From: Beroe forskalii | Taxonomy: Eukaryota > Ctenophora > Nuda > Beroida > Beroidae | DNA: 64,000 nt | Assembly (NCBI GenBank): GCA_011033025.1 | Contig: WFMF01000008.1 | Coordinates: forward strand, 1,431,001 to 1,495,000 | Reading direction: 5' to 3' | Notes under the pieces: generated by a model | The model's input: only the letters and a program-made list of their open reading frames with translations | What the model was told of the DNA's origin: nothing | Databases searched by the model: none | Program-made: the position numbers and the translations under genes | In this document: positions 1,245 to 38,800 of the stretch, piece by piece | Position numbering within the stretch: position 1 is the stretch's first letter | Layout of the letters: every line of letters starts with the position of its first letter

Positions 1245-4200
1245 ATGACGCACAGGTTTGCCAACAGCAGGAGTTCCCAACTCCTCACAACTGCCCGGCA
1301 GTGGCTCCTGATCGATGCAACGGGGCAGCGACTGGAACCCCTGGCGCAGCAAGTGTGCAAAGTGCTGGAGGGGCGGCACAAACCCACGTACAGCAATATC
1401 GTGGTGAGTGGCGAGTGGGGTAAGTCACAAACCAACGTACAAACCAACGAACAAACCAACGTACAACCCAACGAACAAACCGACGTACAGCAATATCGTG
1501 GTGAGTGGCGAGTGGGGTAAGTCACAAACCAACGTACAAACCAACGTACAAACCAACGAACAAACCGACGTACAGCAATATCGTGGTGAGTTGTGAGTGA
1601 AGTAAGTCGTTATCGGGATTTTTCGACTATCATGCATGTGCTAATCGTCGACAGCCTACTTTGATTAAGGTAAGTTAATGACGTCATCAACCCTCACAAC
1701 TCGCAGGACATGGGGGACCACGTGGTGGTAATCAACACCCGGAAGATGGTGATACCGGAGAAGAAGGTGTTGTGGTGGTACTCCGGCCACGCCCAGGGAC
1801 ACCGCCACGTCTACGCCAAGGACTTTCACATCCTCCGACCCACGGAGTGCCTCAGACTTCAGGTACTAAGCTGTAACATAGAGGTGTCGCCAAGTCTCTG
1901 AGATAGGTGTCTGAAATTTCCAAAAAACTACCATTTGTTTGTGCGTGATAATGATTCAACAGTATATCCACATCCATACATATATGGCGCCATGCGATCG
2001 GAAATTTCAGAATGGATCTCACTTATCGAAGTGTCGACACTAGGGTTACCGAATCGGGCAAATATTCGATATTCGAAATATTCGATATTCGATCTTCGAA
2101 TATCGAATCTTCGAATATCAAAAATAGGTATTCGATATTCGATATTCGAAGCTGTTCGAATATCATGATATTCGAAACTATTCGATATTCGCTCAGTATT
2201 CGATATTCGATATTCGAAAGTTTCGAATATTTGGGATATTCGATGCGATTCGATATTCGCTCAGTATTCGATATTCGATATTCGATATTCGAAAGTTTCG
2301 AATATCATGATATTCGAAGAAGTGTTCGATATTCGATATTCGATATTCGATTGAGCGAATATCGAATCATCGAATATCGAATACTGTAATTTACTATTCG
2401 ATATTCGATATTCGATATTCGATCGAGCGAATATCGAATCTTCGAATATCGAATACTTGGAATATCACTATTCGATATTCGAATACCGAATATATTCGAA
2501 TATATTCGAATATAATCGAATATATTCGAAAATATTCGCTACTATTCGGTATTCGATGATTCGATATTCGCTCAATCGAATATCGAATATCGAATACCGA
2601 ATAGTAAAATTCCAAGTATTCGATATTCGATGATTCGATATTCGCTCAATCGAATATCGAATAGTGAAATTCAAGTATTCGGTATTCGAAGATTCGGTAT
2701 TCGATATTCGGTATTCGCTCGAGCGAATACCGAATACCGAATATCGAATACTTTTTCGAATACCCTGATATTCGAAACTTTCGAATATCGAATATCGAAT
2801 ATCGAATATTCTACGAATATCGAATCAGGGCGAATATCAAAATATTCGATCCGACCGAATATCGAATATTCGAATATCGAACCCAAGTTTCGAATACTTT
2901 CGAATATATTCGGTAACCCTAGTCGACACCTCTGTAAGTTTGGTAAACGGTTTTATCACCTTAAAGTCGAAAATACTTCACTGGGCTCCCAAGTGAAACT
3001 TTTGCTACCTGCACTGAAGGCTCCCGATTGTGTCTTTTATTTATATCAGGCTTCAGATCTAGGTATAGAATTTACCGAAATTTAGAATTAAGTGAAGTTT
3101 CGGAAATAACATCCCAGGAATTAGATTAAATTGGCCATTTCGGTGCTGTGTGTAGGGATTATGCTGCTCGATTCTAATTGGAATGATGCAGACCTGCAGA
3201 TCAAAGCAGGGCTAACGTGGGAACGTCTTCACTCTTCTGTGTCACACGCCCCAGGCCCATTGTATGTAATAATACGTATGTCATAACACGTCGAAATTAA
3301 ATGATTCCAGTTTCGACGACTGACAAAATTACAAATTGAGACTGGATCCCACCCCGTTTAGGTTGAATTCAAGCTGCCACAAAAGCGCGACTACTCGGAC
3401 TCAGGAAAGAGGGTGGAAATGTTTAAGGACCGGAGTCCTCTGATGGACAGGCTGTCTCGGCTACACCTCTTCCCGGGAAAGGACCACCCTTACGCTGCCA
3501 ACATCTCCAAGGTAAGGACTTGTTAATTCGTTAACTCTTCAAAGGTTAGGAGTTGTTAATTTGTTAACTCTTCCAAGGTCAGGAGTTGTTAATTCGTTAA
3601 CATGTCCAAGGTGAGGAGTTGTTAATTTGGTAACATGTCCAAAGTCAGGAGTTGTTAATTTGTTAACTCTTTCCAAGGTCAGGAGTTGTTAATTTGTTAA
3701 CATGTCCAAAGTCAGGAGTTGTTAATTTGTCTGTTAACACTTCTAAGGCCACGGGTTGTTAATTTGTTTGTTAACATTTCCAAGGTCAGAAAATGTTAAT
3801 TTGTCTGTTACTTTGCTAACATTTCCATTTTCCAAGATTCGTAACTTAATAACGAAGAACTTTTTGTTGGTTTGATTTTGCTAAGGCAAGGAATTGACTT
3901 TTTAATTTGTTCAAAATTTCTTCTGGCGGAGAACTTTTGAGTTTGCTGATATCAACCCAGAATCGGGAGATGCCGTCGCGTGTATTATAATAGTACATTG
4001 TCACAGTTTTGGGAAACGAACCAATTCAGGCTAAATAAATACTTCATAACTTATTACATGTAATTAAGGTGATTTTACCTACAATATTTCGATGACACCA
4101 TTAAATTTCCAATTTTGTTCGAATAATGTCTAAAAATTGCCCAGTTTTTGAGAATTACCCAAAATGAGACTACACTTCACCTCCCCCCCCCCCCCAGACA

Positions 4201-7200: not shown

Positions 7201-9712
7201 TAGCGCTATGTAGTAAGTTAATGAAGTCGTTATCATAGCACAATGTAGTAAGTTGATGAAGTCGTTATCTTATCGCAATGTAGTTAGTTGATGTCGTCAT
7301 TACCATAGCGGGATGAAGTAAGTTGATGACTTTGATCGCTTCTTGTTCGCGCGCGCCGAAATTGTCCAGGTACTGAATTAACACTGATTAATACTGATTA
7401 AAGAAGTGAAGAAAGCGCATGTATTATACCAGTTATATTTGTACCAAGCAGAATATGTACACACTGTACAAGTAATAAATGTATGATACTATGATGAGAA
7501 GTACGTAAGGTCGTAAGATACCTGGACAGAAGTACGTACATTTGCTGATCAATTGAAAAGTACGTTCTAGTACCAATCAATGTACTTTTCAATAATTAGA
7601 TAAAAGTTTTACTTTACCGGGGAAATAGATACAAGCATGGTTTGAGGTCCAATTAACATATCCTGAAAGTTTTCAAAATAAGTTACCTTGAGAACATTTT
7701 TATGGGCCATGCGCTTTTTGGACTACTCCAAATTTTCAATTATTGCTCAACCTCGATTCACTGTGTCAGTTCTTCATACCGGCCTTTCTGTGAGGCTCTA
7801 CATGCGACCACGCCCATTTTGAGGCCTTATACTTATAGAAAAAGGACGGCAATGGGGTTTGAACTCATGGTCTTTCTACCTCCCTTACCTACCGATAAAG
7901 TATTGAGAGCACTTTAATGCTCTCTCAGTTCTCACCCATCACCTTCTGCTTATACTGAGCTAGGCATCATCACTTACCTTTCCATGGTAGTCAAACGTCT
8001 GATTAGTGTCTTTCTGAGCACTCCATTTCTATGTGCTGTTAGTTACATTTTAGCCCTCTAATCCCTTATCTGATTTCCGTTTAATTTTCCCCGTGTGAAT
8101 AAAATTGCTGAGTAGCTGGGGGATCGTCCTGCTATTGGATGAGAGGAATTGGAGGCAGCTTCCCATCTGCATCCCATCTCGAGTTGGTACCATTCGCCCT
8201 CCGTTTTAATATACCCGATTCAATACCCGTGTTTCTACTAGTTAAGAGTACAAACCGAGCTACACTCCTGCGGATGCCTCTCTTCCCTGACATTTCCACC
8301 TCATCAGCCCCCACCCACCCACTCGATGTGGAGGAGGGTGTGGTGCGCCCCAACGTCTGGAATCACGGTCTCTTCAGCTGCTGCGACGACTGTGGGGAGT
8401 GCTTGTTGGCATTCTGCTGCCCCTGCGTAACCTTCGGCCTCATCATGCGGGACGCCTGCTACCCAGGCTACTGGTGTGAGGGATGCTGGGGGTGCTGTTG
8501 TGCCTGCTCACTCTACACAATGCTTGCTCCGTGTGGACTAGCGGCCTGGGGGCTCTCCATTAGACCCAAGATACGAAGGGAGCATGGGATCTACGGCAGC
8601 AGGGTCATGGACTACTTGGCGGTCACGATGTGCACCAGTTGTGCTTTGTTACAGGACAGAATGCAACTGAAAACGTCCCACAAGGGGGTTGTGGGGCAGG
8701 GAACACCAAACGAGGATCCAGTTACTGATGTTCCTACTTCATATGATACTCGTCGCACCAACAAGCTGACCCCTCACCAGTTTTAACTGACTCATCATCA
8801 ATCATTGTGGCTGATTACCTGATACGTGGATAGTAGATGAAAACAGATTTTTACGTCTAAAGACAGAATGGACACCGAAAGATTACTTTTATCACTGATC
8901 CTTTGTTGACTTTCAGTTTAAAACAACTTTCTTTTCATTTTGATGCATTTGTTGTGAAACGATTTATTATGTAATAACAGTTTTCCTAATTATTTGCATA
9001 TAGATATTCTTATTATGTCAGAATATTAACGTTGTAACTTGTAACGGAATCTGACCTGTAGAGGTACGGGATTCGTTCCCATCCACAATAGCCCTGGTAT
9101 GGGGGACCTCCCAGCGGGAGGTCCCGTGCTGGGTACTCTGGTCGGATCTCTAGCAGATCCCTCCCCGTCTATAAAACAAGGATACTGAAGATTTAAATTT
9201 GCTAAAACATATTAAACGTGCAAGAAAACAGGAGACAGTCCATGACCGTCTGACCAATCGCCTAGCACAAAAAATGGGAAGGGGTTGTCCAATAGGTTGT
9301 TCTGTACGTTGTCCGATTGGTCGTCCAAAAGGCTGTCCTGGAGCTCTGTAGGTCGTCCAATAAGTTGTCCTGTAGGTCGGCCAGTAGCTTGTTCTGTAGG
9401 TCGTCCAATAGGTTTTCTAACATCATTGAAACGCTGAAAAGAAGGGGTACAGGCAAGACGAGCGTTGAAGAATCGGTCGATTGATAAAGATCCTTAGATG
9501 CATTTTAATATCATTTCAAATGCAATATGGTAATGCTATGGGTTTATATGACAATATGATCAATGTATTTCGCAGGTGTGTTGGAGGCTCCTGAGAACCT
9601 GTACAAGTCCTCAGCTGACTACACGCCCAAAGAAAGAGAGGAGTTCGTTAAAGCTCCGGATTGTAGAGTCAGGAAACCACAGGCTCTCTATGATTGGGAG
9701 GAGTTGGACTGA
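1245..9712 (+). CDS. MRPL13: Mitochondrial ribosomal protein L13 (uL13m), four exons
   Basis: This is a large-subunit protein of the mitochondrial ribosome. Exons are 1245-1403, 1707-1862, 3362-3511 and about 9576-9712. Residues read RQWLLIDATGQRLEPLAQQV, then GRHKPTYSNIV, then DMGDHVVVINTRKM, then WYSGHAQGHRHVYAKDFHI, then RLSRLHLFPGKDHPYAANIS, and end SADYTPKEREEFVK...DWEELD. This follows the L13 fold, including the family's G-DHVV-NT and LHLFP motifs, and the total of about 200 residues suits a mitochondrial L13 with its C-terminal extension. Junctions 1 and 2 are phase 0 and in frame. The last junction is not: using CAG at 9573-9575 leaves a 2-base phase mismatch, while an AG at 9585-9586 restores frame with a poorer acceptor. 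A missed small exon or a one-base consensus error is also possible. Intron 3 (6 kb) contains a PLAC8 gene. Exon 1, exon 3 and the stop codon each carry a tandem repeat. Confidence 0.88.
1383..1605 (+). repeat. Tandem triplication of MRPL13 exon-1 end plus 5' splice donor
   Basis: The exon-1 tail ACGTACAGCAATATCGTG followed by the donor GTGAGTGGCGAGTGGGG recurs. Donor GT positions are 1404, 1501 and 1586. Between copies lie short CCAAC-GTACAAA / CCAACGAACAAA subrepeats of 12 bases, themselves similar to the exon sequence CACAAACCCACGTACAG. A second donor-like GGGGTAAGTCAC is in the first two copies (GT at 1418 and 1515). Only the first donor gives the expected protein. Confidence 0.85.
2041..2921. 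mobile_element. hAT-type foldback/MITE made of TTCGATATTCG satellite-like repeats
   Basis: The 881-bp element starts TAGGGTTACCGAAT and ends with its reverse complement ATTCGGTAACCCTA. It is flanked by identical 8-bp copies of GTCGACAC (2033-2040 and 2922-2929), which is a target-site duplication of hAT length, and the TAGGG start also suits hAT. Almost the whole interior is interleaved TTCGATATTCG / CGAATATCGAA motifs, which are self-complementary. There is no transposase. It sits in MRPL13 intron 2. Open frames across it are low-complexity artefacts. Confidence 0.82.
3505..3835 (+). repeat. Minisatellite seeded on MRPL13 exon-3 end / 5' splice donor (about 9 units)
   Basis: A unit of about 33 bases begins with the last bases of exon 3 (TCTCCAAG) and the donor GTAAGG, followed by a TTGTTAATTYGTTAAC block. 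Later units read CTTCCAAGGTCAGGAGTTG, TGTCCAAGGTGAGGAGTTG, TGTCCAAAGTCAGGAGTTG and so on, to about 3835. At least one later copy (AAG|GTGAGG near 3610) is a good consensus donor. Others have GTCAGG or a lost GT. Confidence 0.85.
5143..5203 (+). repeat. Dispersed repeat, copy 1 (inverted copy at 27655-27719)
   Basis: The stretch beginning AATTGCGCCTGCCGG and ending GTATGCAGGCGCTTAATTTC recurs in reverse complement at 27655-27719 with only small differences. Each copy is itself partly palindromic (GCGCCTGC...GCAGGCGC), so it looks like a short TIR element or the end of a larger one. Confidence 0.65.
7137..7330 (+). repeat. Tandem array, about 5 units of roughly 40 bases
   Basis: Units share ATGTAGTAAGTTGATG followed by a TCGTTATCATAGCGCAATG-like block, with small internal changes. 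It lies in MRPL13 intron 3 upstream of the PLAC8 gene. I see no exon edge here. Confidence 0.7.
8274..8786 (+). CDS. PLAC8-domain (cornifelin-like) cysteine-rich protein, single exon
   Basis: This is a PLAC8 family protein. The family covers small cysteine-rich, membrane-associated proteins that include cornifelin, PLAC8/onzin and plant FCR/PCR cadmium- and cell-size-related proteins; molecular function varies. The domain reads WNHGLFSCCDDCGECLLAFC, then CPCVTFG, then CEGCWGCCCACSLYTMLAPCG, then IRPKIRREHGIYGS, and ends CTSCALLQ, matching the CC-x-C-PC and R-xIRxxxGIxG pattern. I chose ATG 8274 (MPLFPDIST...) because it starts about 20 residues before the domain. An in-frame upstream ATG at 8139 would add 45 residues without recognisable content. 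The C-terminal about 45 residues are polar. No intron is needed. It lies wholly within MRPL13 intron 3 on the same strand, so it is either a nested gene with its own promoter or a retrocopy. Confidence 0.87.
   Translation: MPLFPDISTSSAPTHPLDVEEGVVRPNVWNHGLFSCCDDCGECLLAFCCPCVTFGLIMRDACYPGYWCEGCWGCCCACSLYTMLAPCGLAAWGLSIRPKIRREHGIYGSRVMDYLAVTMCTSCALLQDRMQLKTSHKGVVGQGTPNEDPVTDVPTSYDTRRTNKLTPHQF
8787..9287. other. PLAC8 gene 3' region
   Basis: This is AT-rich presumed 3' UTR, then a short GC-richer stretch with a hairpin GACCTCCCAGCGGGAGGTC near 9105-9123. I see no coding exon. Confidence 0.4.
9290..9418. repeat. About 5 x 24-base tandem repeat
   Basis: TTGTCCTGTAGGTCGTCCAA-type units vary at a few positions. 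The array lies about 160 bases upstream of the last MRPL13 exon. Confidence 0.7.
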
Positions 9713-9897
9713 GACCTCTCAGAGCCAAGGACTGAGACCTCTCAGTGCCAAGGACTGAGACCTCTCAGAGGCAAGGACTGAGACCTCTCAGAGCCAAGGA
9801 CTGAGACCTCTCAGAGTCAAGGACTGAGACCTCTCAGAGCCAACTGCCAAGGACTGAGACCTCTCAGTGCCAAGGACTGAGACCTCTCAGAGGCAAT
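9705..9897 (+). repeat. 8 x 23-base repeat seeded on the MRPL13 stop codon
   Basis: The end of the coding frame, TTGGACTGAGACC (TGA at 9710-9712), is the first unit of a tandem repeat GGACTGAGACCTCTCAGAGC with variable last bases. I count eight copies to 9897. Every copy keeps an ACTGAG core, so the stop codon itself is inside the unit. Confidence 0.85.
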
Positions 9898-11867: not shown

Positions 11868-12660
11868 GAGGGGACTTTCGGAGTATAATGAACTAAATTA
11901 CACCTGCGATGTCAATATTTTAATTTCTATATTGTGCGTCTTTTATCGATAATCGATACCCTGAACCCATTGGATCTATGTTTCAGTGTCATGTGTGTAC
12001 TGTGTGTGTGTGTACGTACATTTAGATAACGCCAAGTGTCAATGTATTGAATTTGATTGATTGAGCAGTTTCACTTTAATTGACTTAGATCGTTTTTAAA
12101 ATTTAATTCTATATAAATTATAATTAAATCATATTCATTTTGGGCATAAATATTAATAATTTTGTACCCTATCGCAATCGCACAATGATATAGATTTTTG
12201 AATTTATTTATGAATTATGTTCTACTTCTTCAATTCAATGCTGTTGCACTTGCAGTTCGATCGATTTTTCCTATCCTGTGTTCGGGAACGCACAAATTTT
12301 AAGTTTTAACTTTTAATTTTATCATGCCTAATATGAAAGGATTGATTGTTGTCTGACGTCGTGGAGGGAGTCAGGCGACACGACAAATATTCAAATTGAT
12401 TGTAAATGTATTGATTCACTTTCAGATTTTATTTGTGTGTACATTATGATTTTTTTGGCATTTTATAGTGAACAGTTGTATTTGAATTTTGTACCGAATC
12501 TCAATCATATTCATATCCTTGGTATTACCTATGGTAAATGTAATGGTATCTACTATCGTATCAGTATCTCAACCTTTGCACTTTGGCTTTTCCGCTTTCA
12601 CGCGCGCACGGCTTCAGCTTATGTTATAGGTCGACGGATGTTACCCGTCTAATTCTAAAC
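11868..12660. other. AT-rich intergenic, no feature seen
   Basis: This is the presumed COMMD5 3' UTR, then AT-rich sequence with a short GT run (about 11995-12015). I see no conserved coding or repeat unit. Confidence 0.4.
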
Positions 12661-12663
12661 TCT

Positions 12664-12947
12664 AAAATGACTGGATTCCAGTCATTTTAGACAAAATAAG
12701 GCTCCGTAACATGGAGTAATCCCTAGGATGTTACACTTTTTTTTACAGTACTTACCGGTACCCTTCCCCGCGCAACGGTCACATTTCCGCTCTCGCCCTG
12801 GTTTTTTAGCCTTCCAGTCAGACTGGAAGGCTAAAAAACCAGGGCGAGAGCGGAAATGTGACCGTTGCGCGGGGAAGGGTACCGGTAAGTACTGTAAAAA
12901 AAAGTGTAACATCCTAGGGATTACTCCATGTTACGGAGCCTTATTTT
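12664..12947. mobile_element. Perfect long palindrome (foldback element), 127-bp arms
   Basis: From AAAATAAGGCTCCGTAACAT at 12693 to its reverse complement ending at 12947, the two arms are identical by eye over 127 bases and meet near 12820 with no spacer. A separate small palindrome, AAAATGACTGGA / TCCAGTCATTTT, precedes it at 12664-12688. The outer arm sequence CTCCATGTTACGGAGCCTTA also begins the repeat family at 12925-13027 and 53293-53530, so this may be one element inserted head to head with another. Confidence 0.8.
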
Positions 12948-13027: not shown

Positions 13028-13043
13028 GGTATTGTGGTAATTA

Positions 13044-13730: not shown

Positions 13731-16700
13731 TTAGCTGTACTTCTCAGTGAACTCCATATGAAACTGTGCGAGTTTGTCCAGGAACACGACCAGTTGGTCC
13801 TTGGGCGGTAGAATTGTCATCCTGAAGTGGAATGTCCCTGGAATTTGCCAAAACCCGCTGCCCGGCACAACACAGATTCCCGTGTGCTCCAGCAACTCGA
13901 GGCAGTAGAAGAAGTCCGGCTGCATGCCCTTGCTCTCTGGTATCTGGATTGCCTTGTCTGGTATCTCCACCCGAGGGAAGGCGTACATGGCGCCCTGCAG
14001 CTCGTTGCACACGATCCCCGGAATCTCGTTCAGCTTCCGGTGCACGAGCACGGACCGGTCCTTGAGCGACTGAAGGACGGCTGAAGTCTCGACTGGTAGA
14101 GCTCAGCGGCGTCAGCAGTAGGTGGCTTTGATCATGCAGCTGATGGCGACCTGTCCAGCAGTGGAGGAGCACAGAGACGCGGATATCAACTTAGCCAGCA
14201 TGCCCTTCACTTCGGGGTCATGTCATTCCGCAGTAACCCCTCTCAGCCCACACTTCATGAAACCCTTGACAGAGTGGAAGGAGGCCAGGGCTGGTTGTCA
14301 TAGTTCTGTCCAAGGTCCTCAAGACCTTCTTGAAAGAGGTGAAGGAGTCGGAGTCCCCCCAAATGTTGTCCTGGTACACTTCGTCAGCCATTATCAGGAG
14401 GTTGTGGCGGTTGGCGAACTTTATTATCTCGGCTATGTTTTCAGCTGGTAGATTCTGACCCGTTGGGTTACCTGAAATTTCGATGGTAAGTTAAAGAGAA
14501 AGGTCATTTCTTCACTAAAAGTTCATGGAGTCATTTCTAGAAAGGAATGACACAAAAAGCAAGGGCGCATCAACAAAATTGACTGCCCGTTGCAGAAATC
14601 AACCTCTAATCACACAACACCAGTACAACACACTACATGTTCCTTACACCAGTGGGAAGGAAGGAATGAAGGAATGAAGGGAAGGAAGGAAGGGAAGAAA
14701 GGTAAGGAAGGGAAGGAAAGAAACAACGGTACCTTATTAGCAACGGTATCTTAGTACTTTAGTAACAAGGGGACCTTATTAGCAACGGTATCTTAGTACT
14801 TTAGTAACAAGGGGACCTTATTAACAACGGTACCTTATTAACAACGGTACCTAATTAACAACGGTACCTTATTAACAACGGTACCGTTTTAACGACGGTA
14901 CCTTATTAACAACGGTACCTTATTAACAACGGTACCTAATTAACAACGGCACCTTATTAACAACGGTACCTTATTGACAACGGTACCTTATCGACAACGG
15001 TACCTAATTAACAACGGTACCTAATTAACAACGGTACCTTATTAACAACGGTACCTTATTAACGGTAATTTTATTAACAACGGTACTTATTAACAACGGC
15101 AATTTGATAACAACGGTACCTTATTAACAACGGTATTTTATTAACAACGGCATCTTATTAACAACGGTAATTATTAACAACGGTACCTTATTAACAACGG
15201 TACCTTATTAACAACATATTAAGCAACACAATTGAAAACCAACGAGCAGAACTAATGACGAGAGGACGCAGCACATGCTTTTATATATGCCACTGACACC
15301 ACTCAGTACCCAATCAAGCATGACGAATAGCGTTACGTGCGCATACCAACTCTATGAGACGTTGACACCACTTGCACCATATTAAGCGTGACGAATAGCC
15401 ACGATTGCACATTCCACATACCAACCCTAAGGACGTTGACACCACTGCACCCACCGAGCATGACGAAAATTTTACAACAATGTATATTTACCACGTGATA
15501 AAGAGAGCCCTTTTCTTTCTTTCTCATTTCATGCATCTATCTTCATTCATAATGCGTAATTTATGAATATAAATACTAACGTAACGAACGAAGGTTAATT
15601 ATGCGCCGCGCAGCGCACGTACGTTTTTTCTAGAAATGTTCGAATTTGAGAAGAGAGGGTACTTACACATGTTTGTCTGTCGTAAGTTTCGTTTTAACTA
15701 GCAATACGTAGTAGAAGATTTCATATGCATATTTCAGAAATCATTACAGTCACATACATAATTGTACAAAGCTAGACAAAGCAGATATAAGTGAATGGTG
15801 ATAGTTAAAACCATCTGCACAAACTTCATCAGTGTCTGAATTACCTAAGAGCTTACAAAGGTATATATATTACCTACATTTACTTGTATTTATTCCAAAT
15901 GTATACATATTGTGTAAGATGGAGAATTTTAAACTTTTACACAATAATTCACATGTTTTGATGTTACAGAAGAAAGGAAAGTTAAGGAAATGCCAGCATA
16001 TTATATGTCACAAGACAGTGGGAATTCATTCAAGCTAATGAAGGAATGTCTTCAGACTGTATAGATTGTGAATGATAATAATGGACAAGTCAAATATTGG
16101 TTTTGGTAGATAAATATGATATAGGAACATTGATTATTGATTGCAGGACTATTTAGCTTAATATCTCGATACCTTCGGGTTGGTTTTCGAGTCACCAACT
16201 AAAGTTTAAGCGACTTTACTGATGCAATTCACCATTTTAAACCATGATATTGATCGGCAGTCTCAACTATCTGTAATATTGTAAGAGACGTTTAGATACT
16301 AAGTCAGCGTACGAACCTGGGTTAATGATGCAGATAGATTTAGAATCCTCGAAAGCTCGTTCCAGCTCGCTAACGTCAAGCGTCCAGTTGTTACCTTCAT
16401 CCATGTAGTAACTTATCAGTTGTGTGTCAGTGAGATGTAACATTTCAATTATTAGTGAGCATGATGATTGTAGATTGGAGTGGGACGTTTGATATGGAAG
16501 TGAAACTTGAATATCTTATATGGAACTACAATCTGTAATCTGTATGATATTCATTTTTCATCGCTATTCAAACCTGAAAAGAAAAATGATGTTGCTATCA
16601 TATGATCTGAACTAAGCATAAACTCATCTGTACAAAGGAAGACTATTGTATCGAAGCAAGGCTCCGAAGCAAACATAAATGAAAACAAGGGTAATACCCA

Positions 16701-19700
16701 CCAGTTGTGCATTGAATTCGGCAGTGCAAGCCGAGTAGAGGGGGTATTGGGGAATGGGGATCATAAAACCAGGTCGCTCATCTCCATCCTTCATAGTAAG
16801 GACCAGCTTCATGATGTTCTGAAACAGTCACATCTTATAGGCCCTGTACTTCTGTTCCAATGAAGAATGAAGATGTTAACATGTTACCTACCTTGATAAC
16901 ATGTAACCCACCTTAATACAGTCACCAGCTCCAGTAATGAAGATGTTAAAGGGATGGTAAAGTTTTCAGATGCAAATTTCTAATTTTATCTTATTCCGGT
17001 AAAAATAGCTAATTCATGACCTCTAATAAGATTCTACTGTTTGTTTGTACAAAACACGCCCTGGAATGACTCAATTAAGGCTGTCATATTTTGCCCTGAA
17101 AAGGTACATTGATGTTATCAGGTTATCATGTGAAACTCATTGGTTTTTGACATTAATTATGTCTGGATTATGGTTCTCCAATCAATTATGGACATGCCAA
17201 ATATTATTTTGTTGTATGCACATTTATGGTTCCGCCACAATGATGCAATTAATGAGCGCGATATCACCCAGGCTATATTGAAAGGTAGACCCTATGCCTT
17301 CTCGGCTTGCGGTTATGTATAATGTATGATAAATTTTCCGTTACAAATCTATTAATTAGTGGTCACAGGGCGCATATCGTGGAATGAAACATATCACATA
17401 CTTGTTTATATGATATTTCGGTAACATTAAGGCTAAAATAAACAAAATTTATTTTTGAGCCCAAAACTATACCATCCCTTTAACATGTTACCTACCTTGA
17501 TACAGCCACTAGCTCCAGTAATGAAGATGTTAACATGTTACCCACCTTGATGTTACACATCAGCCCTGTACCAATGAAGATGTTAACATGTTACCTACCT
17601 GATACAGCCACTAGCCCCTGTACCAATGAAGATGTTAACATGTTACCTACCTTGATACAGCCACTAGTCCCTGTAATGAAGATGTTAACATGTTACCTAC
17701 CTTGATACAGCCACTAGCTCCCTGTAATGAAGATGTTAACATGTTACCTACCTTGATACAGCCACTAGCTCCTGTAATGAAGATGTTAACATGTTACCTA
17801 CCTTGATACAGCCACTAGCCCCTGTAATGAAGATGTTAACATGTTACCTACCTTGATACAGCCACTAGCTCCAGTACCAATGAAGATGTTAACATGTTAC
17901 CTACCTTGATACAGCCACTAGCCCCTGTTCCAATGAAGATGTTAACATGTTACCTACCTTGATACAGCCACTAGCCCCTGTACCAATGAAGATGAAAACA
18001 TGTTACCTACCTTGATAGAGCCACTAGCTCAAGTAATGAAGATGTTAGCACGTTACCTACCTTGATACAGCCACTAGCCCCTGTACCAATGAAGATGTTA
18101 ACATGTTACCTACCTTGATAGAGCCACTAGCTCCAGTACCAATGAAGATGTTAACATGTTACCTACCTTGATACAGTCACTAGCCCCTGTACCAATGAAG
18201 ATGTTAACATGTTACCTACCTTGATACAGCCACTGGCTCCAGTACCAATGAAAGCAATGAAGATGTTAACATGTTACCAAGCTTGATGAAGCCACTAGCT
18301 CCAGTACCAATGAAGATGTTAACATGTTACCTACCTTGATACAGCCACTAGCTCCTGTAATGAAGATGTTAACATGTTACCTACCTTGATACAGCCACTA
18401 GCTCCTGTACCAATGAAGATGTTAACATGTTACCTACCTTGATACAGCCACTAGCTCCAGTAATGAAGATGTTAACATGTTACCTACCTTGATACATGTT
18501 TACTAGCCCCTGTACCAATGAAGATGTTAACATGTTACCTACCTTGATACAGCCACTAGCCCCTGTACCAATGAGGATGTTAACATGTTACCTACCTTGA
18601 TACAGCAACTAGCTCTATCAATGAAGATGTTAACATGTTACCTACCTTGATACAGCCACTAGCTCCAGTAATGAAGATGATTATGGCCAGGTAGCGCAGT
18701 GGTTAGGGCGTCTGACTTTCAATCGCGAGGTTGGTGGTTCGATTCCCGGCCTTGCCTACCGTGCTAAGGGTGAGAACTCTCACCTAAGCAGCCACACGGC
18801 TCAGCCGAGCGTACAGGAAACTGTGCGGGAGGGTTAAATGAGGAGCTGCCCATTGCAGCGAAGTCTCGGGCGACGAAAGTATGGATTACACTTCCTTAAC
18901 CGTCACTGGCTTGATTACTTGAATCCTTCGATTCCTGTCATTGGCTGTTACAGCTGTTGGAATATAAGTAAAACCTTCGAAATAAACATGTTACCTACCT
19001 TGATACAGCCACTAGCTCCAGTAATCATGAACTTAAGGGATCGTTCACATATTACGTAATCAATTTTTGGCCGATTTTAACCCCCCCCCCCTCCCCTTCT
19101 TAATCAAGTGTACAGTCGTTGTATTTGTTACATTAACATGTAACATAATCATTCCGAAACCCCCTCCCTCCCCCTAGGTCATTACGTGATATGTGAACGA
19201 TCCCTAACATGTTACCTATCTTGATACAGCCACTAGCTCCAGTAATGAAGATGTTAACATGTTACCTACCTTGATACAGCCACTAGCTCCAGTAATGAAG
19301 ATGTTAACATGTTACCTACCTTGATACAGCCACTAGCCCCTGTACCAATGAAGATGTTAACATGTTACCACCTGATACAGCCACTAGCTCCAGTAATGAA
19401 GATGTTAACATGTTACCTACCTTGATACAGCCACTAGCTCCAGTAATGAAGATGTTAACATGTTACCTACCTTGATACAGCCACTAGCTCCAGTAATGAA
19501 GATGTTAACATGTTACCTACCTTGATACAGCCACTAGCCCCTGTACCAATGAAGATGTTAACATGTTACCTACCTTGATACAGCCACTAGCCCTGTACCA
19601 ATGAAGATGTTAACATGTTACCTACCTTGATACAGCCACTAGCCCCTGGGTGTACCAATGAAGATGTTAACATGTTACCTACCTTGATATTAAGCCACTA

Positions 19701-22700
19701 GCCCCAAAATTAATGAAGATGTTAACATGTTACCTACCTTGATACAGCCACTAGCTCCTGTTCCAATGAAGATGTTAACATGTTACCTACCTTGATACAG
19801 CCACTAGCTCCTGTTCCAATGAAGATGTTAACATGTTACCTGCCTTGATACAGCCACTAGCTCCAGTAATGAAGATGTTAACATGTTACCTACCTTGATA
19901 CAGCCACTAGCTCCAGTAATGAAGATGTTAACATGTTACCTACCTTGATACAGCCACTAGCCCCTGTACCAATGAAGATGTTAACATGTTACCTACCTTG
20001 ATACAGCCACTAGCCCCTGTACCAATGAAGATGTTAACATGTTACCTACCTTGATACAGCCACTAGCTCCAGTAATGAAGATGTTAACATGTTACCTACC
20101 TTGATACAGCCACTAGGCCCTGTACCAATGAAGATGTTAACATGTTACCTACCTTGATACAGCCACTAGCTCCAGTACCAATGAAGATGTTAACATGTTG
20201 ACCTTGATACAGCCACTAGCTCTAGTACCAATGAAGATGTTAACATGTTACCAACCTTGATACAGCCACTAGCCCCAGTACCAATGAAGATGTTAACATG
20301 TTACCTACCTTGATATGTTTCACTAGCTCCAGTAATGAAGATGTTAACATGTTACCTACCTTGATACAGCCACTAGCTCCAGTACCAATGAAGATGTTAA
20401 CATGTTACCTACCTTGATACAGCCACTAGCTCCAGTAATGAAGATGTTAACAAGTTACCTACCTTGATACAGCCACTAGCCCCAGTTCCAATGAAGATGT
20501 TAACATGTTACCCACCTTGATACAGCCACTAGCCCCTGTAATGAAGATGTTAACATGTTACCTACCTTGATACAGCCACTAGCCCCTGTACCAATGAAGA
20601 TATTAACATGTTACCTACCTTGATACAGCCACTAGCTCCAGTAATGAAGATGTTAACAAGTTACCTACCTTGATACAGCCACTAGCTCCAGTAATGAAGA
20701 TGTTAATAACATGTTACCTACCTTGATACAGCCACTAGCTCCAGTAATGAAGATGTTAACATGTTACCTACCTTGATACAGCCACTAGCTCCAGTAATGA
20801 AGATGTTAACATGTTACCTACCTTGATACAGCCACTAGCCCCAGTACGAAGATGTTAATAACATGTTACCTACCTTGATACAGCCACTAGCCCAGTAATG
20901 AAGATGTTAACATGTTACCTACCTTGATACAGCCACTAGCCCCCTGTAATAATGAAGATGTTAACATGTTACCTACCTGATACAGCCACTAGCCCCTGTA
21001 CCAATGAAGATGTTAACATGTTACCTACCTTGATACAGCCAATTAGCTCCTTGCAGTAATGAGAAGATGTTAACATGTTACCTACCTGTTGGTATAAGTA
21101 AAATGTTAACATGCCACCTTGATACAGCCACACTTGCTCCAGTAATGAAGATGTTAACATGTTACCTACCTTGATACAGCCACTAGCTCCAGTAATGAAG
21201 ATGTTAATAACATGTTACCTACCTTGATACAGCCACTAGCTCCAGTAATGAAGATGTTAACATGTTACCTACCTTGATACAGCCACTAGCCCCTGTAATA
21301 ATGAAGATGTTAACATGTTACCTACCTTGATACAGCCACTAGCCCCTGTACCAATGAAGATGTTAACATGTTACCTACCTTGATACAGCCACTAGCTCCA
21401 GTAATGAAGATGTTAACATGTTACCTACCTTGATACAACCACTAGCTCCAGTAATGAAGATGTTAACATGTTACCTACCTTGATACAGCCACTAGCCCCT
21501 GTACCAATGAAGATGTTAACATGTTACCTACCTTGATACAGCCACTAGCCCCTGTAATGAAGATGTTAACATGTTACCTACCTTGATACAGCCACTAGCT
21601 CCAGTAATGAAGATGTTAACATGTTACCTACCTTGATACAGCCACTAGCTCCAGTAATGAAGATATTAACATGTTACCTACCTTGATACAGCCACTAGCC
21701 CCTGTTCCAATGAATATGTCACTAGGGTCTGCTGGGTAGCCGTCTCTAGCTGATATGTACTCAGCGATGTGATCTCTCACCACACTAATCCCCGAGGAGT
21801 CGGTGTATGCTCCTGAGGGTAACACAAGGTCAGAGATTGCTGGGTTAAGTAAAGAAAAACTGAAATTAGTGACAACTGTCACACGGCAGTACATGGATAC
21901 GAAAGTAGATATTCATGAGCTTCATTGGATTTTTTATAAATTCTTTAATTTTTTATGAAATCTTGAAACTTTCTAGTTTCATAGAAATTTTATTTAAGCA
22001 TAAATTAGCGTTGTTGATGAGCTCTCAAATGAACATTTTATAAGAGTCACCGCTTCAACGGCTTGTTTTTTGTATCATTATACTCCAGTTCAAGCAAAAT
22101 CAATTGTGGTATTAAAAGTCAACAGATAATACAATATCTTGATAAGAATCTTCACAGTTCAGTTCTAACACTCCGTACAAAGAAAAAATTTCTAAATGAG
22201 TAAATGTTGCTTTTAGATTTTCAGAATATCACACACTGAAATGGTTTTTTTCGAGATAAAAGATTAAAGTAAATACAAATCAATACAGTTTTTCAGGCGG
22301 AACAGGCGTACTATGCTACACTGGGTCAGTTCATATTACCACTACCAAACTGATAGTTCTTTTTCTGCATTACAAGTTACAAATGTTGCATCAAATGTTG
22401 CATTCTAATCCCAACCCACTAGAACCATTCCTTGTTGCTATTGATATTTTGTCGGATGGGGGCGCCGTCAGGCCCTATCTCGACGAAGGTCCAAGTCTCT
22501 ACAGCCGGTTTGGTAACGCGCCCCGTCCGGCCCCCGCAATGGGGCGTAGTGTGTCCCGTGATGCGGACTGTGCACGGGAAACTAACGATCGGAAACTCCG
22601 CGTACCAGCACTGGCGGTCGCCGTACTTCTGGTTCTGTTCCATCCAATTAGTGTCCCCGAACTGTCGCAGTGTGCCGTGTTCCATGAAGTGAATACGACC

Positions 22701-25700
22701 CATTCCTCGGTAACCAATCACCATCCTTCCACCGTGCACACCAAGGTAGTAGATATCCCGGAGTGGTCCGTTCATCCAATCCATGGTAATGATTCTTGCT
22801 ATGGAGTTATATGGACTAAAGAGAGTAGCGGTCTGTGGGTCCGGGAAGAGGTTCGCGAAGAGGGGATATATATATCAGGGGGCTGGCAAGCCCCCCGCGG
22901 CGGTTTGCGAGCCCGAGGGCCCGAAGGGCCCGAGGGCGAGCATTGGACGGCAGACCTAACAGTGCGAGGGCCGAAGGCCCGAGCGCGAGCCCGAGGACCC
23001 GAAGGGTCCGAGGGCGAGCATTGGACGGCTATTCTAACAGTACACGAGCCTCCGAGCATCGGGAGTGAGTTTTCTTAACTTTGCTTGCCAGCCCCCAACT
23101 ATATGTTTTCATGGATTCACCATATTTCACGTTGAAATTTGAGCAAATTCCCGTTGCCGAAATCGCACTAAAATTTGAACATCACATGTTTAGGGTCAAA
23201 GGTGCAACTGTCAAAATTTCAGGTCAATCGGATGAAAATGACCGAGTTATTACAACTTGAATATTGCCAAAATCGAGGGTGTTCTTGTTAAATTGGGTTA
23301 CGACCATATATACATACATATATATATACATACATACATATATATAGATATATAGAGGTATATACATATACGAGAGATGACGCTTTAGTGCGAAGTATAC
23401 CCTATTTAAACGGCGATATCTCGGGAACCATAAAAGATACAGAGCTCATCGACCCAGCGTTGTAAAGTAGAAAGATAGAACTTGCAGTTAGTGACCTTAA
23501 AAACTATTTTACGTCATGATAATGACGTCATAATGACGTCACAAAACTAAGAATTTCAAATGTCAATTTTCCCAAAATAGGCGTTTTTCAACGCAATTTT
23601 TCGGTATGAAGCTTTCGAGATAGAAAAAAATGCTCCTGTTAGCGCAGAAAGGAAATTTAATGTACTTTCCAAAGATGTGGTCGAAAAGTTCCGGGCTCTA
23701 CGGCATCATTGAGATATTTGCGATTGTTCGAAGCACTTTGACACGAAAAATTTCCAAAACTGGCAAATCTTGTGAAGCTAGTGGAGAGAGAACGACCACC
23801 CCAGAACTTCATCTTTGGATATGTTGTCGGTCATAGTCCCAACTGTGTAAATGAATGGGTCTCAGATAGCTCATCTAATTTAATGACGTAATTGTGACGT
23901 CATCAGTAATGCTAGGTAACGCGAATTTTTACGCGTGATTTGACGCCAAAATTCAATATCACGGCACAGAAAAAGGTGATATTTTTCCCAAAACCAAAAG
24001 GATTTGGTTGTGATGGTCCGCGGCGGTTTTAAGGCGTTCTTTACTGTAAAACCCATGATATGAGAAAGAACGCGACGGTTAAAACTGCCGCAACGGCACT
24101 TTTTGATGCATCAAAGTTACGTGAATGCTGTATGTTTTATAAGTGACGTTGCAGCGGTTTTAACCGTCGCGTTCTTTCTCATATCATGGGTTTTACAGTA
24201 AAGAACGCCTTAAAACCGCCGCGGACCATCACAACCAAATCCTTTTTGGTTTTGGGAAAATAATATATATAAGACAAAGACTAGTGCGATATCAAGCGAA
24301 CGAAAAAGCGCCGTAAACTCAACTAGCACTGTTGAATCTAATACCCAGCAGAACACAAGCCATGTGACAAAAGCAAAAGTCAAAACATCTGCTGCCAGCG
24401 GTATAAAGGAGAGTAGTGCTAATTCAATAATAACCGTGAGTAATTCACAATTTGCTGTAAATAACACATTCAGTTCGCAAATATCACTTAGAATATGTAG
24501 GCTAGAAATAAAAAAACAGATAATGAGGTATAATTGCAATTGCCAAAAACCGATTCCTCAAGGAATGATGACGTATTAATAACAAATTCATACCACTAAG
24601 ACAATATACCCATGTCTTCTACTCGAGTTGGAACTCACCAATACTGCTGCCCCCAACAGCTCCCAGTATATCCTGTGCCCTTTGGATGGAATCGTCACTG
24701 AAACACGTTGACGCTGTTTTCATCAGACTCGGGTTCAACGTTAACGCTATCGTCTGAAATGGGGTTTACTCAAATTAAAATAATTATACTGTACGATAAT
24801 TATACTGTGATATTAATAATCAATTAGTTCATCCTAAGAGAAAGGCACACTCTTCTCTTCACTGTCAATTAGTAGTATCTCATTGTAACAACTTAACAAC
24901 ACGGTATTTGATAATTTGGTGTATGAAGACGCGATTAATGTCAAGCATTCTTGGGAAAATATACGCACATAGATTAGCAAGTTTATTTTGCTGGTTATTT
25001 TAGGATAAATTTACAAATTCTCGGTCCTCCCGTGACATAAAATCAAGTACATGATTATCGTTATACGTGATAACATGTGAAATTGAAGCGAGTTAGAACT
25101 ATAAATCAGTGTCAGGTTTCCAAGTTTTCCAGCATCACAACGTTATTTCCAGCACAGTTCAGGGTTCGTACGGGTGCAATGTGATCTAACTTGTATCGTG
25201 TTTCTTCTTACGCAGTACATAACTTTATTATTCTTGATGCACGCATTATCTTGCCTGGAAGCTCATTCCATTTATTGCTTACAGTAGTTTGACTCGTGAT
25301 CGTAATTTTCTTTCATTCCGCTGTAAAATATCACATATCCTTATAGAGAACTGTCGGTTCTATACAGTGAGACACAACTTATCTTCTAAGTATCATATTC
25401 CTGATAAAACTAAGATTTACATTTCCACAGAGCTGAATCTTTTCGTGGTAGCTAGTAGGACCACTTGTCGAACCACTTTACCTCTTACCTTCAAGTCCTT
25501 ATTTCCCTTCCTCATTCCTCAATCCTCATTCCCCCTCCTCAGTCTTGATATTCCCTATTTGAGACCATGTCCCCACCTCACCTACCCCTCCTCCTGCTTC
25601 TACCTCAGTGCTTGCACTGCTACGATTGTTACGACCAGAAGTGCCGCGGAACGGGTGACTTCGCCACCACCTACATCACCTGTGACCAGGAGTTTAACCG

Positions 25701-28678: not shown

Positions 28679-28800
28679 CTGAGGTGGGCCATAGACCTGA
28701 GGGTTCTGATCAGGTTCAAAATAATGCAGTCATTGAGGTGAGCGATAAGCCTGGGGGGTCTGCTTAGATTCAAAATAATGCAGTTATTGGGGTAGGCCAT
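28679..28800 (-). repeat. Two-fold duplication at the 3' splice site of the first ALT exon seen
   Basis: Immediately upstream of the exon on the minus strand, two diverged units share TGCATTATTTTGAA, then a CAG, then ATSGCYCACCTCA. The second unit ends in the acceptor CACCTCAG used by the exon (start 28678). So acceptor-side sequence is duplicated here. Confidence 0.6.
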
Positions 28801-29853
28801 AGGGTAGAGAGTTCCAATAACTTAATTAAGTTCTTGTCTTATATAGATAATTATTCGAGATTGATTCATTCATGTGATACTCCGCAAAAGACAACTCATA
28901 AATCGTATGAAATACAAATATAATTGAATAGGTATATGATAATAATAATTGATAATTATGTGGTAGGCAACATATTCTTGAAGTTCAACGAAGAAAAATT
29001 TCTATTGAGAAGAAACGTTGTTAGCAACAAGATTTTAATCGAATTTTCCTCGAAATTTTTTATTTTAATCGTCGTTTAATGCAGCTCACAGTTCAAAAAA
29101 GCACTGTATGTACTCCAAACTACATTAAAATTAGATACAAATACCATGACATAGGAATAAACACTTCACACTTGATTTATTTTGGTTGACCATCTGAGGC
29201 TGATCGGTTTTGAATTTCAGTTCTCTAACAATTTCAGTTCTCTAACAATTGACAACAACAAACACGAACTAGACAATTCAAAACATAATAAGCTTGACTA
29301 GAAGGCCTGGTTCCTATCATAAGTCTAAAAGTATGGGATTTTGAGAAACAATAATTAGATTGAACATAATATCTTAATTTGATTTGTAATGTCTTTTGAC
29401 TGTCCTAAGACCTTAGAAACGACTTAAAAGCCATACTGACTGCATTTCATGCCTGACAGGTTCTTATTTCAATGAAAACAGGTATTGAACTTCTAACAGA
29501 TGTTGCTGGTACAGTGGTACACTTAATTTGAAGGAACCCATCATAAATAACTGCTGAACTCTAACTTTGTATACCATTATAACAAGTTGAGCAATGAGCA
29601 TTGAACATCTATTTATCATCGATGCAAACTTACACATATCAACCCCAGATGTCAAGAATATTTCTAGATCTATGGATAATAGATATTGGGTACAGTAGCT
29701 ATCATTACATCATTGCTAATTGATAATAGAAACTCATTGAATGCTTGGTAATAGAGAAACCAGCCTCATATATGTCACTTCACAACATTCAATATGATAA
29801 TATATATCAGGACTACCACACACAGAGGAAACAAGTCTCTATTCCAGTCCTCC
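28801..29853. other. Spacer between PSMD3 and ALT
   Basis: AT-rich. The ALT 5' exon(s) and promoter should be here or be missing; I could not identify a starting exon. A small direct repeat of ATTTCAGTTCTCTAACAA occurs at about 29213-29250. Confidence 0.4.
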
Positions 29854-34760: not shown

Positions 34761-35841
34761 ATATCATTGATATGCCCTCTAATTGTAAATTTTAGGAAGC
34801 GCGCGCAATTGTCAGGCTCGCTGGCGCATGCTGCGCTGCTCGGAATTCGGCACCTGTACCGCGCCCAAACGGCAAACTCTCAACGGCTGGCAGCACTGCA
34901 GCATCGGGCCCGTAGCACCGGGCAAGCATCAAACAACTACAAGTATTCAATATTGATGGTATGGTAAGTATTAAGTAATTACGAATGGATATTGTGTTTC
35001 AACTTTGAGCAATGAATATTTTATCATGTATTTTCATAGTCACATTCTTTCACATCTGTTACCATGGTGTCTTGACCTTTTGATCTATATCATGCCCGGC
35101 GTTTTAAACTTTATGAACATGCAGCATAGGCCGTTACGAAATTGTGCTTTCATATAATATATGCTTCTAGAAAGTGCATTTGCGCGCTATCGCACTCCGC
35201 AAAAAGTACACAACTTATGCGCGTCGTAATACTAATACGCCGCGCATGAAAAGGTCACAGACACATGTTAAGGCGTCATGAACAGTCATCGTCTAAATAT
35301 GTGATCAAACTTTAAAACAAAGAGGAAATGATAATAGGGAATAGGATGGACCTAAAAGTGAGCATTTCCAAACAGTGGACAATGCAATGACAAAACTAAA
35401 TTATGATTTCATAGTGGGAACCGTCATCTTGTGGGCGAATCTGCGAAAACCGATATACAATACCTATTAAATAATTTATCCACTTATATAACTGTTTGTT
35501 TCTGAGATGCATTATTTTAAGGTTTTTACCAAAAACAAAACTTTAAATCGATTTTAGTCAATTAAAGATTTCAAACAATTTCGTTCTAAAACTTTGGTCT
35601 GATCAGCATTTCAAGCCCGATGTTGAAAGCTACATGATTGACTGATTGTTATTTCTGTGCTGGTTTTATCAGCAAACCGGATACCTAAGCGAAGTCTCCC
35701 GAAAATAAAGAATTATACAAGTACACCTAAACGCAAGGAAATGCTTCGGATCAGCTAAGTAACTTAAAGTTAAAACTTAAAGCAGTTCGCTGTGTTTGCT
35801 AGTGAAAGAAAATAGTTAATGGCAGCAGCCAATGATTTCTG

Positions 35842-38800
35842 CTATCTATCTGCATTTGCGAATTGTTTGTTGGGTCCTAATCTAACTATTAGTTTCCTGA
35901 TAGACTCCCTTTTCTTGGTGATATCCTGCTGGGAAAACCAGTCCTTTCTTTCAACGGGGAACCGGTAATCTGTGATAGGGCTCTGAAACAAATCACTGGT
36001 AATAAAGCTAATCACTGGTAATTAAAGCTAATCAGTTGCTTATAAAGCAAATCACTGGTAATAAAGCTAATCACTGGTAATAAAGCTGATCAGTTGCTAA
36101 TAAAGCTAATCACTGGTAATAAAGCTAACCAGTAACCAGGGTACTCGATATTCCATCATATTTGGTATTGCAACGACACAACTGTTAGACAATAGTACGT
36201 GTCCTCATGCACCGATCAATGAAAGAATTGACGCGCATTTTATACAATACAGCGCGCGCAAAAATAATTATAACTCTTTATAATTTAAATTATAGAATTT
36301 TTGTCGAAAGTACAGTTTTTTTACACGTTTTCATCGATCGATCCATGGGCACACATTATGGGCAAGGAATTGACAAATATATCCAGCGGATACCCGGCTG
36401 ATTAAACTCCCACATTACCTCGAAGAATTTCTCCACGAATTGCAGCAGAAAGACCCCACAGTCGCAGAAGTTCTCCTGGAGGGGGCCCTCAACGAATATC
36501 CCCGGGAAGTTGTTCTTGGTGAAGCTCCGGGGGCCCCGCTCGCTCTTCGTCTTCCACTCAACTAAGGGAGTGTGGGGTGGTGAGGGTGTCAATGACCAAT
36601 TGACCAGTCATTCGACGCACACTAGATGTACCCTAGGCGCACCCTAAATCAAAATGCACCCCAAGTGATGCTGCTCGAGTTCACATACCTACATTCCCCG
36701 TGTCCTCAGACGTACTACCCCCATCATCCGGACCCCGGGACCCATATGACCCTTAAAACGGGACCCATGTAACCCCCCCCCCCATTAATATAAGTGTTAT
36801 TTGTAGAGTGTCTAAATCCTGGACAACGCATCAATCCGCAACAAGAAATAAGGAAATCAGATGATTTGTAATACCTGCCAGATAGTTTCTGATGTTGCTG
36901 ACAACGCGGTTGCGGCCGTTAGCCACCAAACTGTCGAACATTAGCACGCAAGGTCGGCAGGTGATCGGTGGCATCGTCGAGTGCTCCCTGGCCTGAGATG
37001 AGGGTTATTGGAATGCAAATGTGGTAACAAAAATCAGGTTATCAGATATTATACCCCTCCCAGGCTGCTCGTTTTAGCGACCAAGTAAGTTGTAGTTATA
37101 GTATGTAATGTGAAATAAGACGTGTAACCGCTTATTATTCTCGATAATAAGTTAACAGGATTTGTAATTCTCTATTGTTATTCACTAGTTGAATGATTTT
37201 AAGAGCCCCCGGACGCACCTTTGACAAGACCCCGTCAATGTCCTTCTCATCTGGTTCAGTCTCTCCATCCCTTTCAGACCTCTTCTGGGAGGGCTTCCAG
37301 TTGGGGTTCTCCTCAAAGTGAGGTGCCTCCAGCCAGGGGTAGCAGATGATGGCCAGATACCAGTGACTGTGCTCGTTTATGGGTACGATGATGTAGTCCT
37401 TGCTGAACAGATCAATGGACTTACTCCATTTCTTTACCTGAAAAGGGTCCCTTGCTAGTCATTGTGGGGAGCTCAATTTGACTTGAAGCATCAAATGCCA
37501 CGCTAAATTCACGGTAGTTGGCCTTTTTGACAATATATCGACCCTAACGTTATTCCACCAAATCTCACAGCGGAATTACTCCGGGGAATACGAATACCAA
37601 TGAAGCCGTAAGTTACCCTGACATTTCACAGACCTGCTGGTGCATGCGCTCCGAAGGATTCAGCTTCTTAGCGGCAGGGTCCTTCTTAGGCTCCTTCTTG
37701 GCAGGCTGGGTGAGGGCTTTGTAAAAGAACGAGTTGAAGAGATGGGTCTTTTCTCTCAGTGCCGGGGACATTAGCTCGTGGTGAATGTACTGAAACAGAG
37801 AATCCTGGTGTCAGAAAGAGAGAGTCAAAGATGCACTCAAAATTATGAGGCGGTTGAGGTCCTCAACCGAGGATGCTCGGTTTGGAAGGGGACTGGAAAA
37901 TTATTTACAATCAAGAATTCTATTATCTGTTTCAAATGGGGAAAGTCTGGAATTCTTAAAATTTACCTTGAGGTAAAAGTCGAGGATGCTGTAGACTTAC
38001 CTTGAGGTAAAGTCGAGGATGCTGTAGACTTACCTTGAGGTAGAAGTCGAGGATGCTGTCGTTGAGGAACTCCTCTGGCTTGAGACACTCCAGATCTGCG
38101 TAGGTTAGGGTGATGCTGGCTTGCACCGGTGGCGGGGGGTAAACGAGGAGAGTCCTCGTGTCCTGCTCAATGACATCCGTATCCATGTGTCTGGGGGAGT
38201 AGGGCGCATGTATAACACATTGGTCGATGATCGATCGAAAGAAATTGGTCGATCGATAATTCGATCGACTGATGTGTTTCGCACAGAAAATCTTTGGCCT
38301 AGTTGGGCATTGGGCAATAGCTATAAAATTGCCTTGTATATACTCGAATTACTCAAACAGTAACACTCACGAATCGAAGTGGTCTACTGGAGGCAGGAGG
38401 TCTTTGATGTAGTTGGAGGAGACGGCCTCTATCCGGTTCATCTTGACGGTGTGGTGCTTGTTGAGGTAGTACCTACAAAACGAACGGTTAAAATGTCTCA
38501 GTAAATCCGGTAACCGTTCGGCAAAGAAGATCGGTTAACCGGTATTTCGGCTATGGTTCCTTAACTGACTGGTTTTAATGAAACGGTTTATTGGAAAATC
38601 CAAATGTTCGGTTAGGGTTACGGTTAGGCGTAAAGGCCGGTTAACCGGTTTTTAACCGGTTGTCTGCTAGACTATAGTACCCCATCATGTTAAGGTGGCT
38701 GGAGGGCGGCTCCTTCACGAACTCCAGACTTATCACTCGCTTGTACTTCACCACGTTCATCGGATCCAGTTCCAGGGGGAATTGCCGTGAGAGAGCGTTC

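Follow-up and report, generated by a model that had tools for sequence, protein, structure and literature searches.

We analysed a window of 64,000 bases from the genome of the ctenophore Beroe forskalii (G000:C913:1431001-1495000; the assembly comprises 216,145,372 bases in 1134 contigs), in which tandem repeats lie across exon-intron boundaries of the genes MRPL13, ALT and SENP. Based on Tandem Repeats Finder (TRF) and reading of the sequence, we found that the donors of MRPL13 exons 1 and 3, ALT exon 4 and SENP exon 9 each lie within a tandem array, in its outermost unit. The closest named protein was that of the ctenophore Bolinopsis microptera for both MRPL13 (65% identity) and ALT (65%; Branchiostoma ALT 47%), and MRPL13 also matched P0121, encoded on a contig of 911 bases that is presumably a transcript, at 90% identity. 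The exons and arrays concerned were the following.

1245..1403, plus strand: MRPL13 (uL13m) coding exon 1 with donor 1403/1404; alignment gapless across the junction with uL13 proteins and ctenophore relatives.
1378..1608, plus strand: boundary array of MRPL13 exon 1, unit 97 and then 85 bases (TRF; junction statistic 64 at shift 97).
3500..3810, plus strand: boundary array at the MRPL13 exon 3 donor 3511/3512, about 8 copies (TRF; junction statistic).
9576..9712, plus strand: MRPL13 last coding exon and stop, matching the C-termini of P0121-P0125 (frame checked).
16698..16818, minus strand: ALT exon 5 (NIMKLVLT...), with its acceptor TTTCAG/AACATC outside the repeat unit (ALT alignments, copy analysis).
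16877..21719, minus strand: donor-containing array of ALT intron 4 (TRF; copy analysis; sequence).
21682..21826, minus strand: ALT exon 4, acceptor end approximate, donor at 21681 (ALT alignments).
37963..38059, minus strand: boundary array at the SENP donor 38033, about 3 copies (TRF; junction statistic; SENP7 alignment).

An earlier reading of the sequence alone had proposed that each of these four donors starts a tandem array, and this was confirmed by TRF, the sequence and homologous proteins. TRF placed the arrays at 1378-1608, 3500-3810, 17480-21719 and 37963-38059, and their units look unrelated in sequence. The proposed unit sizes of about 90, 33, 50 and 33 bases held for the two 33-base units and were refined to 97/85 and 50-53 bases for the others. 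All four junctions were backed by homologous proteins; for MRPL13 exon 3 the assembled sequence deviates from the frame by 2 bases. In MRPL13 exon 1 the unit consists of the final 26 exon bases, GTGAGT and further intron bases (97 bases), the array holds 12-base sub-repeats resembling the exon's ACAAACCCACGT, and the exon 1/2 junction KPTYSNIV/DMGDHVV was ungapped against homologues. The 33-base unit of MRPL13 exon 3 comprises 12 exon and 21 intron bases. This exon ends in NISK, and ctenophore relatives read on NISK-VLEAPENLYKSS...WEELD (NISK-VLEAPENL); the window encodes this continuation at about 9576-9712, where the last exon begins with 2 bases in surplus of the frame, and this match backs the donor 3511/3512 and assigns the stop-codon array at 9706 to MRPL13. 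The SENP unit is made up of 27 exon bases and 6 intron bases (GTAAGT), and the junction DFYLK/YIHH was ungapped against SENP7 3eay.

The unit at ALT exon 4 consists of the last 38 exon bases and 15 intron bases. Along intron 4 we counted 71 anchored copies including the exon copy, mostly spaced at 50 or 53 bases and interrupted by inserts; on 17480-21719 TRF reported 82 copies with a period of 53. The GT was intact in 67 of the 70 intronic copies and AAGGTAGGT was kept in 60, although anchoring of the copies on this motif biases the conservation upwards, and with the same anchoring the copies gave no sign of selection to lose decoy donors. The exon 4/5 junction GASGCIK/NIMKLV was ungapped against human ALT2 and Bolinopsis, and ALT exons 1-5 aligned through. 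Micro-exons placed inside this array by a self-trained gene finder, used for drafting exons only, were false.

Several other features were observed in and around ALT and MRPL13. Short inserts at 16946-17480 and 19033-19206 in the ALT intron 4 array have terminal inverted ends (AAGGGATGGTA... and AGGGATCGTTCAC...) and by eye resemble miniature inverted-repeat transposable elements; the second of these ends was seen again near 59435-59580. The region of the last ALT exon (13733-14471) shows shifted frames and is without a stretch conserved in relatives, which may reflect assembly indels or a decayed gene. ALT intron 2 carries on its opposite strand a single open reading frame (25567-26202) with a cysteine-rich start and, by eye, one likely membrane span, with no Pfam match, and a large near-perfect inverted repeat, hairpin-like by eye, lies between the COMMD gene and ALT (12650-12940). 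MRPL13 intron 2 contains a long degenerate array of ATATTCG heptamers in both orientations (2062-2881), and intron 3 a single-exon open reading frame of the PLAC8 family on the plus strand (8274-8786; Pfam PF04749, E 8e-16).

Further arrays had been reported to touch a stop codon at 9710 and acceptor sides at 28679, 35983 and 60895. The stop codon is indeed contained in an array and is MRPL13's own (9710-9712). Position 28679 corresponds to the first known ALT coding exon, with a start codon nearby, and is not a supported acceptor. At 35983 an acceptor is supported, but the array sits 6 bases upstream and does not contain it, and 60895 belongs to a predicted gene model only.

9706..9896, plus strand: array of 23-base units, the first of which holds the MRPL13 stop codon, with the other copies downstream of the stop (TRF).
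28680..28801, minus strand: array with 2.3 copies, placed at the upstream end of what is so far the first ALT coding exon (TRF; translation).
35989..36128, minus strand: intronic array ending 6 bases upstream of the SENP acceptor, which is not included (TRF; sequence; SENP7 alignment over both exons, with a 3-residue gap near the junction).

The rate of boundary repeats outside the window was determined in an independent sample of Pfam-anchored exons drawn from across the genome, with a junction statistic that required a copy 15-120 bases intronward whose extension scores were no lower than 5 to either side of the junction and summed to 20 or more. The exon rows were hand-picked before the DNA was seen (44 of 92 Mito_carr rows; for Pkinase 20, and then 13 loci, of 135 rows). 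From the first batch (64 exon rows, 60 loci, 39,984 bases) 38 donors and 39 acceptors were chosen by hand among scored candidates, ambiguous ends being dropped; this choice was not blind, the repeats having been seen beforehand. The second batch of 13 loci gave 2 donors and 9 acceptors, with L087, L088, L097, L099 and the donor end of L090 unused. Similar locus pairs (L031/L032, L053/L055, L056/L058, L057/L060, L075/L077 and, by eye, L093/L094) are not fully independent. A boundary repeat was found at 6 of the 88 junctions (95% confidence interval (CI) 2.5-14.3%), namely at 2/40 donors and 4/48 acceptors (3/47 with two homologous acceptors merged).

L040: donor array, 32-base unit, at least 9 copies (TRF and junction statistic).
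L041: donor array, 27-base unit (TRF and junction statistic).
L043: acceptor array, 40-base unit, about 7 copies (TRF and junction statistic).
L048: acceptor array, 57-base unit, about 4 copies (TRF and junction statistic).
L075/L077: acceptor copies 95 and 103 bases away (junction statistic; unflagged by TRF), in two loci that are 88% identical.

At the donor of L047 the score was 17, above a looser threshold only, and we did not class it as an array. Intronic arrays adjoining or close to a junction that they do not include (L030, L054, L053/L055, L085, L092, L093/L094 and L095) were left uncounted. As a separate observation, minisatellites, several of which are rich in pyrimidines, run up to the acceptors of L054, L092, L093, L094 and L095 or stop just short of them and may supply a polypyrimidine tract with no exon copy. 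As a control, the same junction words were sought in foreign introns and matched 0/3706 times for donors and 2/3954 times for acceptors; we take the two matches to be the homologous L075/L077 pair. No copy on the exon side was found at any of the 143 junctions of the window and the sample at shifts of 15-120 bases.

In each array the outermost copy holds intact coding sequence and splice signal, the extra copies lie in the intron or beyond the stop, and both intron ends are affected. We regard the arrays, with a probability of roughly 0.77, as exon-edge minisatellites of the type named mirages in amphioxus, for which duplications arise anywhere and those over an exon edge survive by means of the outermost copy. 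Replication slippage or end-joining would first create a short tandem duplication at some arbitrary site, and the array would then grow or shrink by slippage or unequal exchange. Where the duplicated segment spans an exon edge, whether donor, acceptor or stop codon, the extra copies would fall in an intron or untranslated region, and as long as the outermost copy is used the protein would be unchanged, so that selection would leave the near-neutral array alone. In ALT intron 4 this process may have gone far enough that the intron is largely an array of donor copies. The earlier suggestion that selection tolerates duplications only if they leave the first donor intact agrees with the lack of exon-side copies. 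Predicted use of an inner donor would shift the frame in ALT (+50 bases) and MRPL13 exon 1 (+97 bases) and lead to an immediate stop in L040, while in SENP (+33 bases) it would be in frame with no stop. Inner donor use would thus often be harmful, and some inner use could give protein variants.

The four window donors had been described as far above chance, and this was not established. The arrays themselves were the reason for choosing this window, and its junction list (27 donors and 28 acceptors) was made by hand: five of the 55 junctions come from the predicted gene model at 62899-64000, a small number of positions are approximate (one acceptor does not fall on an AG), junctions 14101 and 14238 were dropped for a frame problem, and the proposed acceptors 28679 and 60895 were excluded. 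Boundary repeats were found at 4/27 donors and 0/28 acceptors. The genome is rich in minisatellites, with TRF arrays covering 16.7% of the window, 8.4% of C913:1-250000 and 6.2% of 45,137 sampled bases. By raw coverage, with ALT intron 4 and the MRPL13 intron 3 stretches 3512-3811 and 8247-9575 left out, a copy on a given side was present at 7.0% of 18,812 window intron positions, which predicts about 3.8 of 55 junctions against the 4 observed. Against the pooled noncoding edge rate of the window (2.74%) 1.5 were expected (P 0.067), and against the edge rate at matched inner positions (2.47%) P was 0.047 for 4/55 junctions and 0.004 for 4/27 donors.

We take matched inner positions as the fair baseline, since edges are more frequent close to exons than among the pooled positions. 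With the threshold lowered to 15, the sample gave 8.0% at junctions and 4.4% at matched positions (P 0.118). Part of any excess is expected, since the exon copy cannot drift. As it is under purifying selection, junction arrays should stay detectable about twice as long as free intronic ones, which would produce a mild apparent excess with no need for splicing-linked mutation; allowing for doubled detectability, 5/87 junctions compared with 5.1% was unremarkable (P 0.46).

Some results weigh against this account, and the junction rates among them favour the alternative of mutational hot spots at exon edges, with tandem duplication around splice sites brought about by co-transcriptional R-loops, polymerase pausing or nicks linked to the spliceosome. 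Compared with the pooled noncoding edge rate of the sample (1.03% of 10,867 positions, one-sided), 6/77 junctions carried a repeat where 0.79 were expected (P 0.0002; P 0.0014 for the 5 independent ones), and at threshold 15 there were 7 where 1.4 were expected (P 0.0007, 77 junctions). Window and first sample together gave 10 (9 independent) against 2.3 expected (P 0.0001 and 0.0006, respectively). These pooled tests used 77 junctions, and the 11 later ones added no match. Compared with positions 18-140 bases inside the same introns, over which a splicing-linked process predicts a junction excess, the junction rate was about 2.7-fold higher (6.8% vs 2.55%) at the threshold of 20, a borderline difference (95% CI -0.6% to +10%, bootstrap P 0.045). 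Donors exceeded acceptors in the window alone (Fisher P 0.051). At 90-150 bases into the intron donor-side repeats dropped to 3 or 4 of 67, below the counts at 0-75 bases, while the acceptor side still showed 5-8 of 74-75. There may thus be a moderate mutational preference, or a moderate excess, at exon edges generally. Use of the outermost splice site is something we infer from proteins of relatives that read seamlessly across the junctions (MRPL13, ALT).

A process linked to splicing or R-loops and acting at exon 3' edges, as the sequence-only reading had suggested, was nevertheless disfavoured by several results. The expected excess of donors over acceptors was absent from the independent sample, and for window and first sample combined the rates were 6/65 donors and 4/67 acceptors (Fisher P 0.53). 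Repeat frequency was not raised at the junction itself relative to positions 15-75 bases into the intron, on either side. At threshold 18 a copy further in was found for 6, 6, 9, 8, 6 and 6 of 67 donors at offsets of 0, 15, 30, 45, 60 and 75 bases, and for 4/76 acceptors at 0 bases and 6, 6, 8, 5 and 7 of 75 at 15-75 bases; at 45 bases into the exon the rate was 0/67 for donors and 0/70 for acceptors. Breaks at a splice site would give a fixed offset between junction and unit edge. Read by hand, the exon part of the unit ranged from 12 to 38 bases and the intron part from 5 to 71 bases, and the place of the junction in the unit was compatible with a uniform distribution (Kolmogorov-Smirnov P 0.46, 9 arrays, lengths read by hand); the junction position therefore varies, and there is no sign of an anchored mechanism. 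Units elsewhere were not clearly enriched in strong splice sites over nearby segments: the 57 arrays of C913:1-250000 contained 4 donors (3.0 expected) and 1 acceptor (1.6 expected), and the 28 other window arrays 3 donors (1.4 expected) and 0 acceptors (0.7 expected). C913:1-250000 is gene-poor according to the gene finder, and its ab initio junctions were kept out of the pool; one gene there, by eye an ammonium transporter, had a boundary repeat at 0/14 junctions. Taken together, we consider a mutational hot spot at exon edges an unlikely explanation. Similarly doubtful is the more far-reaching view that donors and acceptors are true duplication hot spots, that thousands of introns carry intact decoy sites and that the spliceosome reliably picks the outermost site even among about 70 near-identical donors.

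Intron birth or growth according to the Rogers model, in which a duplicated exon segment with AG/GT gave the splice sites and the arrays mark recent introns, appeared less probable still. That introns can originate by tandem duplication had been proposed earlier, with cases from fission yeast, potato RdRp and ATP2A1 given in the available part of PMC4974935, and the amphioxus authors propose a path of intron birth and growth for mirages in the accessible text of PMC3087553. The ctenophore arrays share with the Rogers model a tandem duplication touching a splice boundary or AGGT. ALT intron 4 consists largely of the exon 4 unit, which reaches within about 50 bases of the acceptor, and by eye the start of exon 5, AACATC, also occurs in the ALT unit. 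The ALT acceptor TTTCAG/AACATC is, however, not supplied by a unit copy, and the other three arrays stop about 100 bases (MRPL13 intron 1), about 5.8 kb (MRPL13 intron 3) and about 170 bases (SENP) before the acceptor. In contrast to the model as far as that source describes it, the arrays lie inside introns and no new intron between two copies was seen. It is very improbable that a collapsed or mis-joined long-read assembly made false tandem copies, as could be suspected from the indel-type frame problems in ALT and the surplus bases at the start of MRPL13 exon 4, since the copies diverge by substitutions and indels (TRF matches 77-95% for the four arrays), SENP copies vary in length, ALT has two spacings, 50 and 53 bases, and arrays occur on many contigs.

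The feature is real and was correctly observed at the four donors, but it is a known kind of structure. The claim that no named feature class covers it does not hold against the accessible parts of PMC3087553 and PMC3902484, where exon-intron boundary repeats in amphioxus are named mirages. In the portion of PMC3087553 available, mirages are minisatellites over exon-intron boundaries at both exon ends, with units of 10-160 bases of which many keep AG/GT, in genes including Adh3 and the globins BflGb6 and BflGb9; reverse transcription PCR suggests normal splicing, and length instability is described between haplotypes and in somatic tissue. PGBD5 was added, with Adh and TnC cited, in the corresponding part of PMC3902484. 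As far as these texts go, the ctenophore arrays are alike in that the units hold an exon edge with its splice site (four window donors and five independent sample junctions), in unit length (27 to 103 bases, within the published range) and in affecting both boundaries (donors in L040 and L041, acceptors in L043, L048 and L075/L077). They differ in the ctenophore host, in that one genome was sampled and in one intron with about 70 donor copies, and, whereas splicing and instability data exist for amphioxus, the arrays are known here from assembly sequence. According to the part of PMC2812944 available, gene structure in human segmental duplications is altered by internal tandem repeats, some of which lie at exon-intron boundaries. 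These repeats share minisatellite copy changes at exon-intron boundaries; in that text they elongate exons or introns between recent paralogues, half of them in coding sequence, whereas ctenophore coding sequence was unchanged. A literature search on mirages as minisatellites of amphioxus or lancelets matched only PMC3087553 and PMC3902484, most subscription journals being outside its coverage, and full-text literature on ctenophores and minisatellites gave nothing on exon-edge arrays, judging by titles.

New are the rate in a ctenophore, 6/88 sampled junctions, and an ALT intron made up largely of about 70 donor copies. Exon-edge minisatellites are thereby extended from amphioxus to a ctenophore, with a rough rate. 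Each array is a natural experiment on splice-site choice among near-identical copies, and ALT intron 4 offers 67 intronic copies with intact GT.

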